Part shown: in pieces, positions 29,356-37,694 of the stretch
Numbering within the stretch: position 1 is the stretch's first letter
How the letters are laid out: each line of letters opens with the position of its first letter
Assembly: GCA_014380485.1 (NCBI GenBank)
Contig: JACMJU010000075.1
Coordinates: 1 to 41,672 of the forward strand
Source: Methyloceanibacter sp.
GTDB lineage: Bacteria > Pseudomonadota > Alphaproteobacteria > Rhizobiales > Methyloligellaceae
DNA length: 41,672 bases
Reading direction: 5' to 3'
Translations under genes and position numbers: made by a program
The notes under the pieces: generated by a model
What the model saw: only the letters and a program-made list of their open reading frames with translations
The model's database searches: none
What the model was told of the DNA's origin: nothing

Positions 29356-29370
29356 ATAGCCGGTCGCTAT
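29356..29370. promoter_or_regulatory. LysR-type box, ATAG-N7-CTAT (site 1)
   Basis: A perfect 15-bp palindrome, ATAGC-CGGTC-GCTAT, in the divergent gap between doxX and the first peroxiredoxin gene. It fits the T-N11-A rule of LysR regulators, lies 116 bp from the doxX ATG and directly abuts a TTGACC -35-like hexamer (29371-29376) reading toward the peroxiredoxin gene. Confidence 0.6.
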
Positions 29371-29508: not shown

Positions 29509-30225
29509 ATGACTACGGCCTTTGCCACCGTCGAAGAGGCATTCCGCTATTGCCGCGACATGGATGCTTCTCTGAGCGAAAGGCTCGACACCTTCGCCAA
29601 TGTGGCAAGAGCGCTGCGGCCGGAGATGCAGGAGGCCATCGACCGGATGGTCGAGCGGCTCAAGGCGCACAATGTCGGTGAGACCGCGCCCAAGCCTGGC
29701 GAGGTCATGCCGTCCTTCACGCTCCCCGACGAAACCGGAAGGCTTGTCAGTCTTGACGCACTTCTGGCCGCGGGGCCGGTCGCGATCACCTTCCATCGCG
29801 GCCATTGGTGTCCCTATTGCCGCATCAACACGCGGGTGCTCTCGGAAGCGCAGGACAAGATCAATGCTGAGGGCGCGAAAATCGTGGCGATCATGCCGGA
29901 CCGCGAGCAGTTCGCCGCTTCGTTCAAATTGGATGGGGATCTGCATTACCCGGTTCTGACCGATATCGACAACGGCTACGCGCTCTCGCTCAATCTCGCC
30001 ATTTGGGTGGGCGCCGAGCTCGAGCAGCTGATGGCGGCGGCGGGGCGTGATCTGCCGCGCTATCAGGGCAACGAGGCCTGGTTTCTGCCCATCCCGGCGA
30101 CGTTCGTGCTGGCAAGCGACGGCACCATCACCGCCCGCTTCATCGATCCCGACTACCGCCGGCGCATGACCGTCGAAGACCTGCTGGCGGCGCTGCAAAA
30201 CGCTCAAAATCGAGGGGAAAAGTGA
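29509..30225 (+). CDS. Peroxiredoxin-like AhpC/TSA protein, copy 1
   Basis: A 238-aa thioredoxin-fold protein of the AhpC/TSA superfamily. A helical N-terminal arm of about 60 residues precedes the fold (PKPGEVMPSFTLPDETGRLVSL). The active site is FHRGHWCPYCRINT with C101 and C104, like PrxQ/Bcp-type peroxidases with a neighbouring resolving cysteine. Later landmarks are LPIPATFVLASDGTI and ARFIDPDYRRRM. Thiol-dependent peroxide reduction is the likely role, with an unknown electron donor. GGGAG lies 7 nt before ATG 29509. A close paralogue follows. Confidence 0.9.
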   Translation: MTTAFATVEEAFRYCRDMDASLSERLDTFANVARALRPEMQEAIDRMVERLKAHNVGETAPKPGEVMPSFTLPDETGRLVSLDALLAAGPVAITFHRGHWCPYCRINTRVLSEAQDKINAEGAKIVAIMPDREQFAASFKLDGDLHYPVLTDIDNGYALSLNLAIWVGAELEQLMAAAGRDLPRYQGNEAWFLPIPATFVLASDGTITARFIDPDYRRRMTVEDLLAALQNAQNRGEK

Positions 30226-30366: not shown

Positions 30367-31086
30367 ATGACCTCGAAACCCCTCTCGCAGCTGCTCGAGG
30401 AGGCCTTCGTCCAGTCCCGGGACATGGACGCGTCTTTGGCGGAGAGATTGCAGGCCTTTGCCGATGCGGTGAGACAGTTCGGTCCGAACTTTCAGGAAGC
30501 CGTCGATGTCCTTGTGGACAGGTTGAAACAGCACGACGTCGGCGAAAACGCGCCGAAGCCCGGCGAGGTGATGCCGAATTTCGTCCTGCCTGATGAAAGC
30601 GGCCAACTGATTAGCCTCGAGAGCCTTCTCAAGAAAGGACCCGTCGCCGTCACGTTCCACCGCGGATATTGGTGCCCCTATTGCCGCATCAACACGCGCG
30701 CTTTGGCCGAGGCGCAGAGCCAAATTGCCGCCGAAGGCGGCCATGTCGCGGCCATCATGCCCGACCGCGAGCACTTCACCGCCGGGCTTAAAACGGTATC
30801 AGAGGCGCCGTTTCCGATCCTTACCGATTTCGATAACGGCTATGCCCTCTCGCTCAATCTCGCCTTCTGGGTCGGACAGGAGATGCAGGAACTCATGACC
30901 GGGGCCGGCTGGGACGTATCCCGCTCGCAAGGCTCCAACACCTGGCTGCTGCCGATCCCTGCCACCTTCGTCGTCGGCACCGACGGCGAGGTCAAAGCGC
31001 GTTTCATCGATCCCGACTATCGCAAGCGCATGGCCATCGAGGATTTGCTGTCTGCGCTCAGGACCGCGCGCGAGACCGCGCACTAG
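30367..31086 (+). CDS. Peroxiredoxin-like AhpC/TSA protein, copy 2
   Basis: A 239-aa paralogue of the preceding gene, similar along its whole length, including the N-terminal helical arm (QSRDMDASLAERLQAFAD versus CRDMDASLSERLDTFAN). The active site is FHRGYWCPYCRINT (C103, C106). The pair is a tandem duplication with enough divergence to suggest different substrates or partners. ATG 30367 has AGGA 6 nt upstream and also overlaps the stop of a 34-codon frame at 30266-30370. Its stop codon overlaps the LysR gene stop inside a CTAG palindrome. Confidence 0.92.
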   Translation: MTSKPLSQLLEEAFVQSRDMDASLAERLQAFADAVRQFGPNFQEAVDVLVDRLKQHDVGENAPKPGEVMPNFVLPDESGQLISLESLLKKGPVAVTFHRGYWCPYCRINTRALAEAQSQIAAEGGHVAAIMPDREHFTAGLKTVSEAPFPILTDFDNGYALSLNLAFWVGQEMQELMTGAGWDVSRSQGSNTWLLPIPATFVVGTDGEVKARFIDPDYRKRMAIEDLLSALRTARETAH

Positions 31087-31970
31087 ACCGCATATCGCGC
31101 CCAATCGTAAGCACGCAGCATCTTCATCATGGCCGAGGCCACGGTCGTGCGCTGCCGCCCCGCCACGCCGTAAAGATGGATGGTGCGCTGGAGCCCAAGG
31201 TCGCCGACGCTAATGCGCGCCAAAGTGGCGGGGTTCTGCGTGCTGCGCGGCACCAGAGCGACCCCGACCCCTGCTTCGAGCAAGGAGAGAAGGTCGCCGT
31301 CGGCGCTCACCTCATGAAAACGGCTGACGTCGAAATCCATCGCCCGCAGCAATTCGAGCAGCGTCTCGGTCGTCTCGCAATAGGTGCGGACCATCAGCCG
31401 CTCCTGCCTCAAATCGTCGATGGAAATGAGGGGACGTCCCGCCAGGACGTGCGTGTTCTGCACCAAAAGATGAAAGTCCTCGGTGAAGAGCGGCCAACGA
31501 TCGAGCCGCTCCCACTCATCGCCGATCTGGGCGGCGAGACCGAGTTCGACGTCGCCGCGTTTCAGATATTCGAGCACCTCGGTCCCGTTGCCTCGCAGGA
31601 TCTTGAGCTCAAGGCCCTCGAACAACTTGCCGAGTTCGACCACGTGGGGCGTGACCAGCGACGGGTCGATGGTGCGCGACACCGCGAGCCTGAGCGCGCC
31701 GACCTCGCCCTTCTTGATGGCGGACGCGAGTGAACGGGCGCTGATGGCGCTGTCGTAGCATTGCTTCAGCAGCGGGAGCATGCGCTGGCCGAGCTCGGTG
31801 AGCTGGGCTTGCGGGCGCTCGCGCCGGAACAGATCGCCGCCGAGCTCGCCCTCGAGCTGGCGGATGGCCCGGGTCAGCGACGGTTGGGCGACGTGGCATT
31901 CCTCCGCGGCACGGGTGAAATTCAGCACCCGCGCGACGGCGAGGAAATAGCGGACCTGATGCATTTCCAT
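31083..31970 (-). CDS. LysR-family transcriptional regulator
   Basis: A 295-aa regulator with an N-terminal winged helix (MHQVRYFLAVARVLNFTRAA, HVAQPSLTRAIRQLEGELG, LFRRERPQAQLTELG) and a two-lobed effector domain (RLAVSRTIDPSLVTPHVVEL, SLLEAGVGVALVPRSTQ). It is of the group whose DNA-binding half resembles OxyR/CatM types, but no redox cysteine pair like that of OxyR is evident. It is convergent with the second peroxiredoxin gene and divergent from bdhA. It is the natural candidate to bind the three ATAG-N7-CTAT boxes nearby (inference). Confidence 0.95.
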   Translation of the reverse strand: MEMHQVRYFLAVARVLNFTRAAEECHVAQPSLTRAIRQLEGELGGDLFRRERPQAQLTELGQRMLPLLKQCYDSAISARSLASAIKKGEVGALRLAVSRTIDPSLVTPHVVELGKLFEGLELKILRGNGTEVLEYLKRGDVELGLAAQIGDEWERLDRWPLFTEDFHLLVQNTHVLAGRPLISIDDLRQERLMVRTYCETTETLLELLRAMDFDVSRFHEVSADGDLLSLLEAGVGVALVPRSTQNPATLARISVGDLGLQRTIHLYGVAGRQRTTVASAMMKMLRAYDWARYAV

Positions 31971-32392
31971 GGGAGATGCGCCCCGCCGCCGCCCTAGTCG
32001 TTATCCGGAAGCAGGAATGCAGCAAAGTCGCGGCTGCCCACGCGGCCAGCCGGGGTCGGACAGGCTTCGGCCTGTTGCCTCGCCATGCCAATGGTCATCG
32101 GATCGGAAATTGCTTGGTTCGGGCCCTATTGAAGTCCGGTTTTACGCTTGTGAGCGCTTCGCCGTCGAGGTGATTTGACTCAGTTGACTATAATTTGACA
32201 AGCCGGATTGTCGCGGTTCGGCCCCATTTTCTGCCTTTACCGGCGCTCTGGCGGCCATAGCGCTCCCCTATCGACTCCTTAGCCAACGGGCATTTCCCGC
32301 GCCCCCTTGCTCCGCGCATGATCCGGGTCGAGAAAGGCACCAGTCCGTGCCTGGAAACCGGCGCCGGATGCCCCACAGAGGAGTGCAGCGCA
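31971..32392. promoter_or_regulatory. 422-bp lysR/bdhA divergent control region
   Basis: No gene is supported here. It contains LysR-type box site 3, ATAG-CGCTCCC-CTAT, at 32257-32271, 122 bp before the bdhA ATG. An AT-rich patch at 32173-32200 has three TTGAC elements spaced 9 and 11 bp and an embedded TATAAT (32189-32194), without a -35 at standard distance. It should carry the promoters of both genes. Confidence 0.5.
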
Positions 32393-35280: not shown

Positions 35281-36513
35281 TCAGTGGGCCATCGCCTCGG
35301 GCTGTATCGGCGTCTTGAGGAAAATGGCCAGCAGCGCCGCGCCCACAAGCGCCACGGCAATGCCGGCGACGCAGGCGGCCCACCCGAACATGTCGAAGAT
35401 CAGCCCGAGCACGGCGCTGCCGATCAGGCCGCCGAAGAAATAGGAGGCAAGATAGAGACCGCTCGCCGCGCCGCGGTCCGAGGTCGCAGCGCGGCCGACG
35501 AAACCGGTGGCGCAGGCTTGGGCGAAGAATGTCCCTGCCCCCACCAATACCATGCCGAGCAGAACGGCCGGCAGGCTGGGCAGGACCAGAAGCGGCAGCC
35601 CGAGCGCGGCCACGCCGAGTGCCGCCCAGAACGTTGGCCTGGTGCCGAAGCGGCGTACCGCGCGCCCGGCCAGCGGCGTGGTTGCCATGGCGGGAACGAA
35701 CACGAAATAGACGAAGCCGAGTGTCATGGCGCCGACGCCGAGCGGGGGCTGCACCAGAACGAAATTGACGAAGGTGAAAGTGCCGATGAACGCAAACAGG
35801 ATGCAGAAGCCGATGGCGAAGCTCGCCCGCAAGGCGGGCTTCTTCAGATGCATGATCCAGGCCTCGAAATGCGAGCCCATGGCCGGGGTTACGCATTTCA
35901 TGCACGGCGTCTTTTCGATCGTGAAATAGACCAGCAGCGCGCCGAGCAGATTGAGGACGGCGAAGAAATAGAAATTGCTGGCGAGCCCGAAATGGTCGGC
36001 GACAGCCGCCGAGATCAGCCGGCCGATGAGATTGCTGGCGACATTGCCGGTGATGTAGGCGGCAAAAGCGCTCGCCGAATCGGCGGCGTTGTAGTGCTCG
36101 CCGAGATAAGCGAGCGTGAGGGTGAAGGCCGCCGCCATGCACAGCCCCTGCAGCACCCGCAGGATCGTGAAAGTCGTAAGGTCCGGCGCATACGCGAGCA
36201 GCGCGGTGGGGATGGCAAGCAGGACGAGGCTGATCAGGATTCCTTTTCGGCGGTCGATCTCGCGGCTGAAATAGCCGACGGCCAGACCGGAAAACGCCAT
36301 ACCCAGGGTACTGGCATTGACGGCAAAGCCCATGGCCGCGGGCGAGACGCCGTAATGGCGCGTGAGCGACGGAAGAATGGCCTGAGTTGCGAACAGATCC
36401 ACGACCGTAAGGAAGGCCGTCAACCCGATGACGATCGAGCGCAGGAGCACGCCGCCGGAATGGGTATGCGCTTCGGCCTGCTCCATCGGGGCTGCAGCGG
36501 ATGTCTCGGCCAT
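35281..36513 (-). CDS. MFS transporter
   Basis: A 410-aa inner-membrane protein with about twelve hydrophobic helices. The loop 2-3 motif is AVGYFSREIDRRKG, a variant of the MFS G-x3-D-R-x-G-R-R signature, and the second-half equivalent is GRAVRRFGTRPTFW. YgaY/YnfM-type exporters of drugs or sugars have this look; the substrate is unknown. The N-terminus is a Met/Glu/Ala-rich cytoplasmic tail. ATG 36513 has CAGGAG at 7 nt. It is downstream of the exported cupin gene, separated by a 13-bp stem inverted repeat. Confidence 0.9.
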   Translation of the reverse strand: MAETSAAAPMEQAEAHTHSGGVLLRSIVIGLTAFLTVVDLFATQAILPSLTRHYGVSPAAMGFAVNASTLGMAFSGLAVGYFSREIDRRKGILISLVLLAIPTALLAYAPDLTTFTILRVLQGLCMAAAFTLTLAYLGEHYNAADSASAFAAYITGNVASNLIGRLISAAVADHFGLASNFYFFAVLNLLGALLVYFTIEKTPCMKCVTPAMGSHFEAWIMHLKKPALRASFAIGFCILFAFIGTFTFVNFVLVQPPLGVGAMTLGFVYFVFVPAMATTPLAGRAVRRFGTRPTFWAALGVAALGLPLLVLPSLPAVLLGMVLVGAGTFFAQACATGFVGRAATSDRGAASGLYLASYFFGGLIGSAVLGLIFDMFGWAACVAGIAVALVGAALLAIFLKTPIQPEAMAH

Positions 36514-36538
36514 GGCCGGCTCCTGGAAATGAAAGGAA

Positions 36539-36574
36539 GGATGTGATGCCCTGGGGGGAGGGGGCATCACATCC
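36539..36574 (-). other. 13-bp perfect inverted repeat between the cupin and MFS genes
   Basis: GGATGTGATGCCC (36539-36551) pairs with GGGCATCACATCC (36562-36574) around 10 nt. In the minus-strand transcript it would form a stable hairpin 14 bp after the cupin stop and 26 bp before the MFS start. The following bases are pyrimidine-rich but not a T-run, so attenuation, mRNA processing or an operator are all possible. Confidence 0.7.
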
Positions 36575-36587
36575 AAGGGGGGAGGGA

Positions 36588-37074
36588 TTACATATTCTTG
36601 TCGTTCGGGTCCTTAAGCAGGTCGGCCGAGAGCAGCACGACAGTCGTGTCGCCGAGATTCTTCCACCAATGCGAGACGTCTTTGGTTTCGGCGACCACTT
36701 CGCCGGCTTTGTGCAGGATCGGCTTGCCGCAGTTGCTGGCATATTCGTGTGATCTCGCCCTTGACGACATAGATGATCGCCGGCCGATCGCCGTGGCTGT
36801 GCCACGGCACGATGCCGCCCGGCTCGATGGTCAGTTTCCGCATGCGGAACTTGCGATCGTCGATACCCTGTTCCTGTTCGACATCGATCATGGCGATGAC
36901 GGTGTCGGTGACTCCCACCGGCTTCAAATCCACCTTCTCACGCGCTTCGGCTTTCTTCTGGTCGGCAGGGCATTCGCCGGCGAAGGCGCCCGAGGCCATG
37001 ACGGTCGCTCCCAGGGCAATACCGGCAATTAAGGCAGCGCGGCCGAACCGGCCTTTGGTTCTCGATTGAAACAT
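36588..37074 (-). pseudogene. Exported cupin-domain protein gene, frameshifted
   Basis: From ATG 37074 (AAGGAG upstream) the frame gives a signal peptide (IAGIALGATVMASGAFAG) and a cupin core (LTIEPGGIVPWHSHGDRP, IIYVVKGEIT). It then loses the family. Skipping one base at 36748 restores EYASNCGKPILHKAGEVV, then DVSHWWKNLGDTTVVLL and a natural stop at 36588. The intact protein would have about 161 residues with metal ligands from PWHSH and VSHWW. One extra base disrupts it, by mutation or sequencing error. It is the first gene before the MFS transporter and has LysR box 2 upstream. Confidence 0.88.
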
Positions 37075-37185: not shown

Positions 37186-37241
37186 ATAGCCGAACGCTAT
37201 CCGGTGCACCGAACGCACCCCAATCCATAGCGACAAGGTAT
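37186..37241. promoter_or_regulatory. LysR-type boxes in the cupin/micro-peptide gap (site 2)
   Basis: A perfect palindrome ATAGC-CGAAC-GCTAT at 37186-37200 (17 bp with flanking G/C) is followed 41 bp further, centre to centre, by an imperfect ATAG-N7-GTAT at 37227-37241. This layout is like the recognition and activation sites of LysR promoters. The first box is 112 bp from the cupin ATG, and the gene pair 37356-37617 lies on the other side. Confidence 0.6.
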
Positions 37242-37355
37242 TGGCCGATCAGGGGTATCCGGCACTACGTTTGGATCGTTCCGAACGGACATTCATGGCC
37301 ATCCGCCGGAGCTTCAGACCCCAAGGCCAACAACCGCTCTGAAAGGAGACTTAAA

Positions 37356-37451
37356 ATGAAGCAGCTGCTGATCGTCATCGCCCTGGTCGTCGCCTCAACC
37401 GCGCCCGCTATGGCCGAAGGTTTTCCGAACCCCTACCTGAGCAGCCGCTAG
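37356..37451 (+). CDS. Exported micro-peptide 1 (31 aa)
   Basis: A tiny gene with a textbook ribosome site (AAAGGAG, 7-8 nt before ATG 37356). The peptide starts MKQLLIVIALVVASTAPAMA, a complete signal peptide with an A-M-A cleavage site, leaving only 11 mature residues, EGFPNPYLSSR. A paralogue follows 61 bp on with the same plan. Function unknown; a secreted signal, a membrane-associated peptide or a leader are possible. The duplicate nature and strong translation signals support it being real. Confidence 0.7.
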   Translation: MKQLLIVIALVVASTAPAMAEGFPNPYLSSR

Positions 37452-37512
37452 CAGCTCGGTCAGATTGATCGGGCAAGGCGTCAGCCTTTGCCCTCTCGAA
37501 AGGAGAAACCCC

Positions 37513-37617
37513 ATGAAGACGCTTTTTCTCGCTCTCGCTCTGGTCGTCGCGGCTGCGGCGCCGAGCATGGCTCTCGAATTCTCCGGCACTCCCCCGGGCG
37601 CATTCGGAACCCGTTAA
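37513..37617 (+). CDS. Exported micro-peptide 2 (34 aa)
   Basis: Second member of the pair. The ribosome site AAAGGAG again sits 7-8 nt before ATG 37513. The signal peptide MKTLFLALALVVAAAAPSMA ends like its neighbour's (A-P-x-M-A), and the mature part is LEFSGTPPGAFGTR, 14 residues ending in Arg as in copy 1. The start-to-start distance is 157 bp. Both genes precede the terminator at 37661-37694, so they form a bicistronic unit. No family recognised. Confidence 0.7.
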   Translation: MKTLFLALALVVAAAAPSMALEFSGTPPGAFGTR

Positions 37618-37660
37618 GTCGAGTGGGTCGTGTCCGTGTGACCCCTTCCTCTCCCAAGAG

Positions 37661-37694
37661 ATGCGGGCGCTCTCGATGAGGCGCCCGCATTTTT
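37661..37694 (+). terminator. Intrinsic terminator after the micro-peptide genes
   Basis: Perfect 10-bp stem ATGCGGGCGC (37661-37670) and GCGCCCGCAT (37681-37690) with a 10-nt loop, running straight into TTTTT on the plus strand. It ends the micro-peptide transcript; the convergent uvrB gene stops 84 bp further. Confidence 0.9.

Follow-up and report, generated by a model that had tools for sequence, protein, structure and literature searches.

Two very short open reading frames (ORFs) standing in tandem in a contig of Methyloceanibacter sp. raise the question of whether reading frames this small are genes at all and, if so, what their products do for the cell. The stretch of DNA analysed here (the window) is 41,672 nucleotides long. 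Peptide gene 1 (37356..37451, plus strand) has 31 codons, which specify the signal MKQLLIVIALVVASTAPAMA and the mature peptide EGFPNPYLSSR. Peptide gene 2 (37513..37617, plus strand) follows after 61 nt, and its 34 codons specify the signal MKTLFLALALVVAAAAPSMA and the mature peptide LEFSGTPPGAFGTR. The original prediction, made from the sequence alone, described two tandem ORFs at 37356-37617 that carry the same AAAGGAG ribosome-binding site and encode a signal peptide ending in APxMA, followed by an Arg-terminated tail of 11 residues (gene 1) or 14 residues (gene 2). All of these features are present. The AAAGGAG sites lie at 37342..37348 for gene 1 and at 37499..37505 for gene 2 (both plus strand), and the heptamer occurs three times on the plus strand and once on the minus strand of the whole window. 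Each product runs from a Lys-led hydrophobic stretch through APAMA or APSMA into its short tail, with the cleavage site placed by eye.

The pair was to be given up as exported peptide genes if no homologues with conserved mature residues existed. This search was run, and it recovered a family with a conserved core: 31 genes, often in tandem, from 12 of 17 Methyloceanibacter-group genomes (G000, G004, G005, G006, G009, G010, G011, G013, G015, G016, G018 and G019). The count excludes a fragment at a contig end (G015) and a second copy that is apparently frame-shifted (G019). The mature part, which is 10-15 residues long across the family, begins with the core [EDQ][GN][FY][PSE]N[PLAV][YHF] in 30 of the 31 products, a rule drawn from these same sequences, and core variants include EGFPNPY and ENFSNPY. 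This N-terminal core is conserved and the C-terminal half of the mature peptide is more variable. A C-terminal Arg is present in 28 of the 31 members, and because the residue before the stop codon is kept in this way, the peptides are unlikely to be remnants of a longer exported protein. The signal ends alike in every member: position -1 is always Ala, position -3 is Ala, Val or Ser, and a Pro stands at -4 or -5.

Gene 1 has the three hallmarks of this EGFPNPY family, namely the AxA-type signal end, the core and the C-terminal Arg. Two profiles (A2, built from 8 rows, and A3, built from 20 rows) score it at E 2.7e-18 and 6.1e-17, but gene 1 is itself a row of both, and the exact core match is therefore the fairer test. 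When the exact pattern EGFPNxY was sought in 30 genomes of the family-level group, 14 places were found, 13 of which are true peptides, and the reversed control gave none. The remaining place, in G003, lies inside a longer ORF and was rejected. Profile A2 also matched members outside its own rows in G010, G011, G013, G015, G016 and G019, with E values from 1e-10 to 1e-20. On another contig, the source genome carries a second tandem pair, which encodes two identical 30-residue peptides (MKKLILAVALVIASASPVLA followed by EGFPNVYMTR) 28 nt apart.

Neighbour clustering and upstream sequences divide the loci into three main types, and the window belongs to type C. Ratios of nonsynonymous to synonymous change (dN/dS) were computed for the other two types, so that type C genes, the window pair included, are in neither set. 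For type A (11 genes, with L067 omitted for a signal one residue shorter) dN/dS is 0.11, with 0.09 for the signal and 0.13 for the mature part; for type B (7 genes) it is likewise 0.11, with 0.11 for the signal and 0.12 for the mature part. By this measure, family members are under purifying selection. That the two window ORFs arose by chance, as their very short length might suggest, has a negligible probability because conserved-core homologues, found in 12 of 17 genomes and backed by exact-core matches, and a dN/dS of about 0.11 already refute it. The tandem exported-type peptide genes that were predicted thus stand, and both window ORFs are almost certainly genuine genes.

The even conservation of signal and tail also bears on the form of the product. 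It would be expected of a small single-pass membrane protein that is never cleaved, with its N-terminus inside and its C-terminus outside, and that acts through its helix and tail together. Cleaved signals typically combine a short hydrophobic stretch with an Ala at -1 and a Pro at -4 or -5. The short stretch is seen here and the two residues are found in 31 of 31 members, which argues against the uncleaved form and leaves it distinctly improbable.

Gene 2 differs from its neighbour. Its tail, LEFSGTPPGAFGTR, lacks the conserved core, and a search of 17 genomes returned no close relative of that tail. Family members match the gene 2 query over residues 1-25 only, with alignments ending at residue 23-25, and its profile score (E 1.8e-6) is at the level of unrelated signal peptides. 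Assignment of gene 2 to the core-bearing members is therefore unsupported. In the corresponding slot elsewhere, G013 has a core-bearing second copy and G019 the apparently frame-shifted copy mentioned above. We read gene 2 as a diverged tandem copy, an assignment based on its position and architecture and not on its tail. Tandem position and shared control can in this way reveal micro-genes that are missing from the family libraries searched.

As far as our searches reach, the family appears to be restricted to its genus. Across the order, the exact pattern was found in 6 of 397 genomes, all six within the genus, and in 0 of 386 genomes outside it. A profile search at E 1e-4 matched 14 of 297 genomes, six of them genus members; the eight matches outside the genus (E 1.7e-6 to 9e-5) were all read and proved to be the starts of longer exported proteins. 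One of these eight, L167, has QTFSNAF within a 203-residue frame, a core-like string that is probably there by chance. In a collection of 84,980 species, 21 pattern matches were obtained and 4 confirmed, three from Methyloceanibacter (one of them M. methanicus R-67174) and one from a Hyphomicrobiales bacterium; the pattern used there required E or Q as the first mature residue and is blind to D-forms. A viral origin was rejected: viral contigs yielded 16 stretches that fit the pattern, and not one of them was confirmed. Within the group, G008 and G012 (99-100% completeness) and G017 have no profile match at E 0.01, and G007 and G014 have weak profile matches only. Since near-complete genomes such as G008 and G012 lack a match, the role of the peptides is dispensable. 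The string EGFPNPY has no match in the open-access collection searched, and the family is absent from titles and abstract openings among the matches listed there for Methyloceanibacter peptides, small proteins with redox regulators, and methylotroph secreted peptides.

No known protein family fits the peptides that were tried. With five peptides, the best Pfam match has E 0.021 (15.8 bits against a cut-off of 27) and the best NCBIfam match E 0.01 (15.8 bits against 31). With three peptides, the best PHROGs match has E 0.021 and PADLOC gives nothing at 0.1. A profile search of the PDB reached E 0.12 at best, and the best Pfam, NCBIfam and PHROGs matches all lie over the signal part. Small size, a hydrophobic N-terminus and tandem copies would suit a small toxin, a bacteriocin or the peptide of a type I toxin-antitoxin pair. 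This reading is highly improbable, given mature tails that look soluble, a Cys in only 1 of the 31 members, the PADLOC result and the lack of a recognized immunity gene among 40 annotated neighbour proteins. Sequence scans of the window region found no Rfam antitoxin RNA family and no promoter-like site. The same 40 neighbour proteins or pieces, a subset of all neighbours, contain no recognized RiPP modifying enzyme.

What, then, might these peptides do? The original prediction listed three possible roles, namely redox-stress factor, signal or lipid-active peptide. The promoter region offers an indication. A LysR-type box upstream of the peptides had been predicted and is in fact present twice: box 1, ATAGCCGAACGCTAT, lies at 37186..37200 between the cupin gene and the peptides, and box 2, ATAGCGACAAGGTAT followed by TGG, lies at 37227..37241 (plus strand), 114 nt upstream of gene 1. 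Two further boxes occur in the window, one at 29356..29370 before a pair of AhpC/TSA (peroxiredoxin-like) genes (29509..30225 and 30367..31086, both plus strand) and one at 32257..32271 between the LysR gene and a short-chain dehydrogenase gene. We propose that the LysR-type regulator encoded at 31083..31970 (minus strand) is the owner of these boxes. The form ATAG-N7-[CG]TAT accounts for 4 sites and 7 strand matches in the window against 0.26 expected, and none of 100 shuffles reaches 7. The divergent partner of the peptides is an exported cupin gene (36588..37074, minus strand), which falls into two reading frames in this assembly and is a single frame in G019; the Pfam match was obtained with the G019 copy, to which the two window pieces are 57% and 78% identical. 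An MFS transporter gene (35281..36576, minus strand) follows the cupin gene.

The arrangement recurs in other genomes. Upstream of the peptides, both ATAGCCGAACGCTAT and ATAGCGACAAGGTATTGG are kept, with changes, in G004, G019 and G013, and the C42 pair and G011 retain ATAGCGACAAGGTATTGG as well. A longer form of the box, ATAGC-N5-G[CG]TATT[CG][CG], has 12 sites in 10 genomes (reversed control, 1), of which 8 are in peptide or cupin promoters, 3 before AhpC/TSA genes and 1 elsewhere. Only this longer form is specific, because the looser 15-base box has many sites elsewhere and its control hits equal the true hits in several genomes. The genes that follow boxes in G004 and G019 are AhpC/TSA relatives (56-74% identical). 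The LysR gene was found at E 1e-60 in 5 of 17 genomes, and in four of the five a boxed peptide lies 0.5, 1.9, 5.4 or 5.7 kb away. The fifth, G014, has a box before its AhpC/TSA genes and another before a different, 71-residue exported protein, with no core peptide. In G011, boxed peptides are present and no LysR gene was found at E 1e-60. A scan for sigma-70 promoters returned 0 sites and is uninformative.

A second family of small exported proteins, about 70 residues long with F-x-x-FDN...C...M...C or a close form, was also encountered (L065 8081-8317, L147 725-940, L086 3499-3714 and L155 2160-2369). A LysR-type box lies upstream of its members in G004 and G014, further members occur in G005 and G010, and the one copy examined against Pfam had no match.

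The OxyR consensus box is ATAG-N7-CTAT, and boxes of this kind do stand before peroxide genes here, as they would in an OxyR regulon. The regulator is nevertheless not OxyR itself according to curated NCBIfam equivalog cut-offs, since the LysR protein scores 81.5 bits against 329 for NF008361 and 58.8 against 500 for NF050018. Because of this failure, the identity of the inducer is indicated by the neighbouring genes only. The peptide box also precedes AhpC/TSA genes that adjoin a LysR gene, both in the window and in four other genomes (G004, G013, G014 and G019).

A second, unrelated regulator points in the same direction. Upstream of type A peptides lies TAGACC-N4-GGTCTA or a sequence close to it. 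G006, G009 and G018 have one exact copy apiece, in every case at a peptide, and G000, G004 and G016 have none; the reversed control matched G004 at two sites (four strand matches). A TetR gene was found at E 1e-30 in 7 of 17 genomes and lies directly before a peptide in six (as two frames in G006). The seventh, in G019, faces a gene for a CMD-domain protein (PF02627, AhpD-like family; two frames there) across a similar-looking promoter. LysR and TetR, although unrelated, thus each tie the family to peroxide-type functions. The redox-stress link that had been suggested for the window pair is in this respect borne out by inference, and a link of the family to stress is quite likely. For type B, a conserved promoter sequence was seen by eye, and no regulator was found for it.

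The wider neighbourhoods vary, and no partner gene is consistently linked to the peptides. Type A loci (L064, L066 and the syntenic L067-L070 and L072) have genes for fatty acid cis/trans isomerase, GH15 proteins and FMN reductase nearby, some add cytochrome P460, and the surroundings look stress-like. Upstream of type B peptides there is a 31-residue hydrophobic protein, MSSFKLLATSVVLVAAWAGAVGLATVFFATI, or a relative (L063 7351-7446, L074 7394-7489 and L077 8250-8345; the frame differs in G018, L078). In G009, a gene for a caspase-like peptidase lies about 4 kb from a type B peptide and is not seen at most loci. In G004, a gene 1.2 kb past the type C peptide (L065 8936-11848, minus strand) encodes a hybrid sensor histidine kinase that includes a bacterial sensor domain.

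This kinase is a possible receptor, although it is not consistently linked to the family, and it brings in an alternative by which the mature peptide of 10-15 residues leaves the cell and is sensed as a report of stress. A secreted signal of this type would fit a short, multi-copy, exported-type product with a conserved core, a more variable C-terminal half and a nearly constant Arg end. The TetR protein, moreover, weakly resembles ScbR-type autoregulator receptors (33.4 bits against a cut-off of 150), and in G010 a protein from the kinase's cluster is encoded about 1.6 kb from the peptide. The kinase was nonetheless not detected at other peptide loci in the neighbour clustering, and passage across the outer membrane would have to be explained. 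Annotation covered 40 neighbour proteins or pieces. We consider the signal reading unlikely.

The downstream ends of the transcripts raise a different alternative. The strong terminator that had been predicted after gene 2 was confirmed as an intrinsic-type hairpin at 37657..37694 (plus strand) that ends in five T residues. The 86-nt stretch containing it folds at -39.1 kcal/mol (z -4.7; none of 200 shuffles as good), and a separate hairpin detector reported it, although a scan with a consensus terminator missed it and placed its two hits elsewhere (1.1 expected). A C-rich tract, CCCCTTCCTCTCCC (37642..37655, plus strand), lies just before the hairpin and might have a function of its own. The terminator loop in the window is CTCGATGA and lacks CCCTCCC. 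Types A and B have C-rich terminator loops, mostly with CCCUCCC, an anti-Shine-Dalgarno motif. Of 22 peptide loci given to the detector, 12 yielded a hairpin (L070, which is cut near a contig end, was left unlabelled). Nine of the 12 hairpins have CCCTCCC in the loop, compared with a single one among the 62 other hairpin-plus-T sites detected in 407 kb; the Fisher value of 1.9e-8 overstates the case because the rows are related. Among 23 downstream regions, 11 contain CCCTCCC against 0.8 expected; the type C region of G004, counted among these 11, has it outside the terminator loop. Type A and type B terminators have different stems, and in both types four pairs show changes on both sides, a result obtained in 0 of 500 shuffles for type A and 5 of 500 for type B.

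The sole other hairpin with the CCCTCCC motif follows the cupin gene in the window (36539..36574, minus strand). Its counterparts in G019 (L079 7120-7190, minus strand) and G004 (L065 7360-7440, minus strand) also have C-rich loops, on altered stems; these hairpins follow the cupin gene or lie near it, on the strand opposite to the peptides. A second C-rich terminator region follows type B peptides (L063 7832-7942, and by eye also L074, L076 and L078), and it has a sub-threshold resemblance to mmgR/suhB-like sRNAs (17.3 bits against 41). At the three loci examined with Rfam, no family exceeded its threshold, and no known RNA family was therefore assigned. The loci do not fit the Cuckoo/CcsR type of sRNA, in which several hairpins carry CCUCCUCCC loops: a single CCCUCCC hairpin is present at most loci of types A and B, and the window copy of the peptide locus has no such hairpin.

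The loop counts and the paired stem changes would suit a transcript that acts also, or mainly, as an sRNA, which would block ribosome-binding sites through the C-rich loop of its terminator in types A and B or, in type C, through the C-rich tract, and rhizobial stress sRNAs with CCUCCUCCC loops offer a precedent (PMC3927594). Against this stand the window loop without the motif, detector sites at only 12 of the 22 loci, the Rfam result and a dN/dS of 0.11, which means that the peptide itself is selected. Taken as a whole, this RNA reading is quite unlikely. A combination of both outputs is somewhat more plausible, though still improbable: a stress transcript that might yield an exported peptide of 10-15 residues active in the envelope and also a cytoplasmic anti-Shine-Dalgarno sRNA, formed by the loop or by the C-rich tract of the window, with the whole module duplicated under various redox regulators in a single genus. 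C-rich loops, together with known stress sRNAs and protein-sRNA transcripts, keep this reading viable for types A and B; it is weaker for the window copy because the terminator loop there lacks CCCUCCC.

The reading that we prefer is that the EGFPNPY peptides are stress-induced periplasmic effectors, and we give the whole chain of steps a probability of about 0.5. The LysR regulator would switch on the peptide transcript under peroxide or electrophile stress. The products would be exported by Sec, and signal peptidase would free a peptide of 10-15 residues into the periplasm. There, the conserved N-terminal core would dock on a common envelope partner, perhaps a sensor, a protease or a transporter, and adjust that partner for the duration of the stress. 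Tandem and multi-locus copies would raise the dose and would place one effector under LysR, TetR and a third type of promoter. The footing of this proposal in the sequence consists of the selection on the peptides, the apparent Sec-type signal with its AxA-type site, the core and final Arg, the tandem order before a single terminator, and the box held in common with AhpC/TSA genes. Exported peptides of this size are difficult to recognize in Gram-negative genomes. The family is clean, selected and multi-copy, its promoters, regulators and terminators are mapped, and at least one strain of its genus (M. methanicus R-67174) has been named, so that both the stress-peptide function and the dual-output transcript are directly testable.

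Several known systems resemble parts of this arrangement. The BhsA/YhcN-type periplasmic stress proteins of enterobacteria are small (about 85 residues), exported and present in several copies, but the EGFPNPY peptides have no Pfam match. The ATAG-N7-CTAT box, and with it a LysR regulator that adjoins peroxide genes, recall OxyR/LsrB of Rhizobiales. In contrast, the window LysR falls far below the OxyR cut-off, and the available part of that account does not mention an exported peptide (PMC11975290). Pos19 of Rhodobacter sphaeroides is described as an RpoE-dependent small coding RNA that takes part in the oxidative stress response and exerts its regulation without being translated (PMC5036791). 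It resembles the peptide transcripts in being short and alphaproteobacterial, in its link to stress and in having a terminator of its own behind a single tiny ORF, and it is reported only from strains of a single species. The accessible part of its description contains neither 'signal peptide' nor 'periplasm', whereas EGFPNPY is a selected, exported-type peptide with multiple gene copies.

Two further precedents concern the RNA. In the CcaF1-CcsR system, as far as its published account was available, a DUF1127 small protein and the CcsR stress sRNAs reside on one transcript (PMC10253847), and the rhizobial stress sRNAs are reported, in the part of the source consulted, to have CCUCCUCCC anti-Shine-Dalgarno hairpin loops on variable stems (PMC3927594). 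Unlike both, the peptide loci have a single hairpin, which is the terminator and has CCCUCCC in its loop, and the window copy lacks the motif; unlike CcaF1, the EGFPNPY peptides are of exported type and have no DUF1127 match. Stress-linked small proteins and small coding RNAs are thus already known, and what is new here is an apparently genus-restricted family of exported-type peptides.
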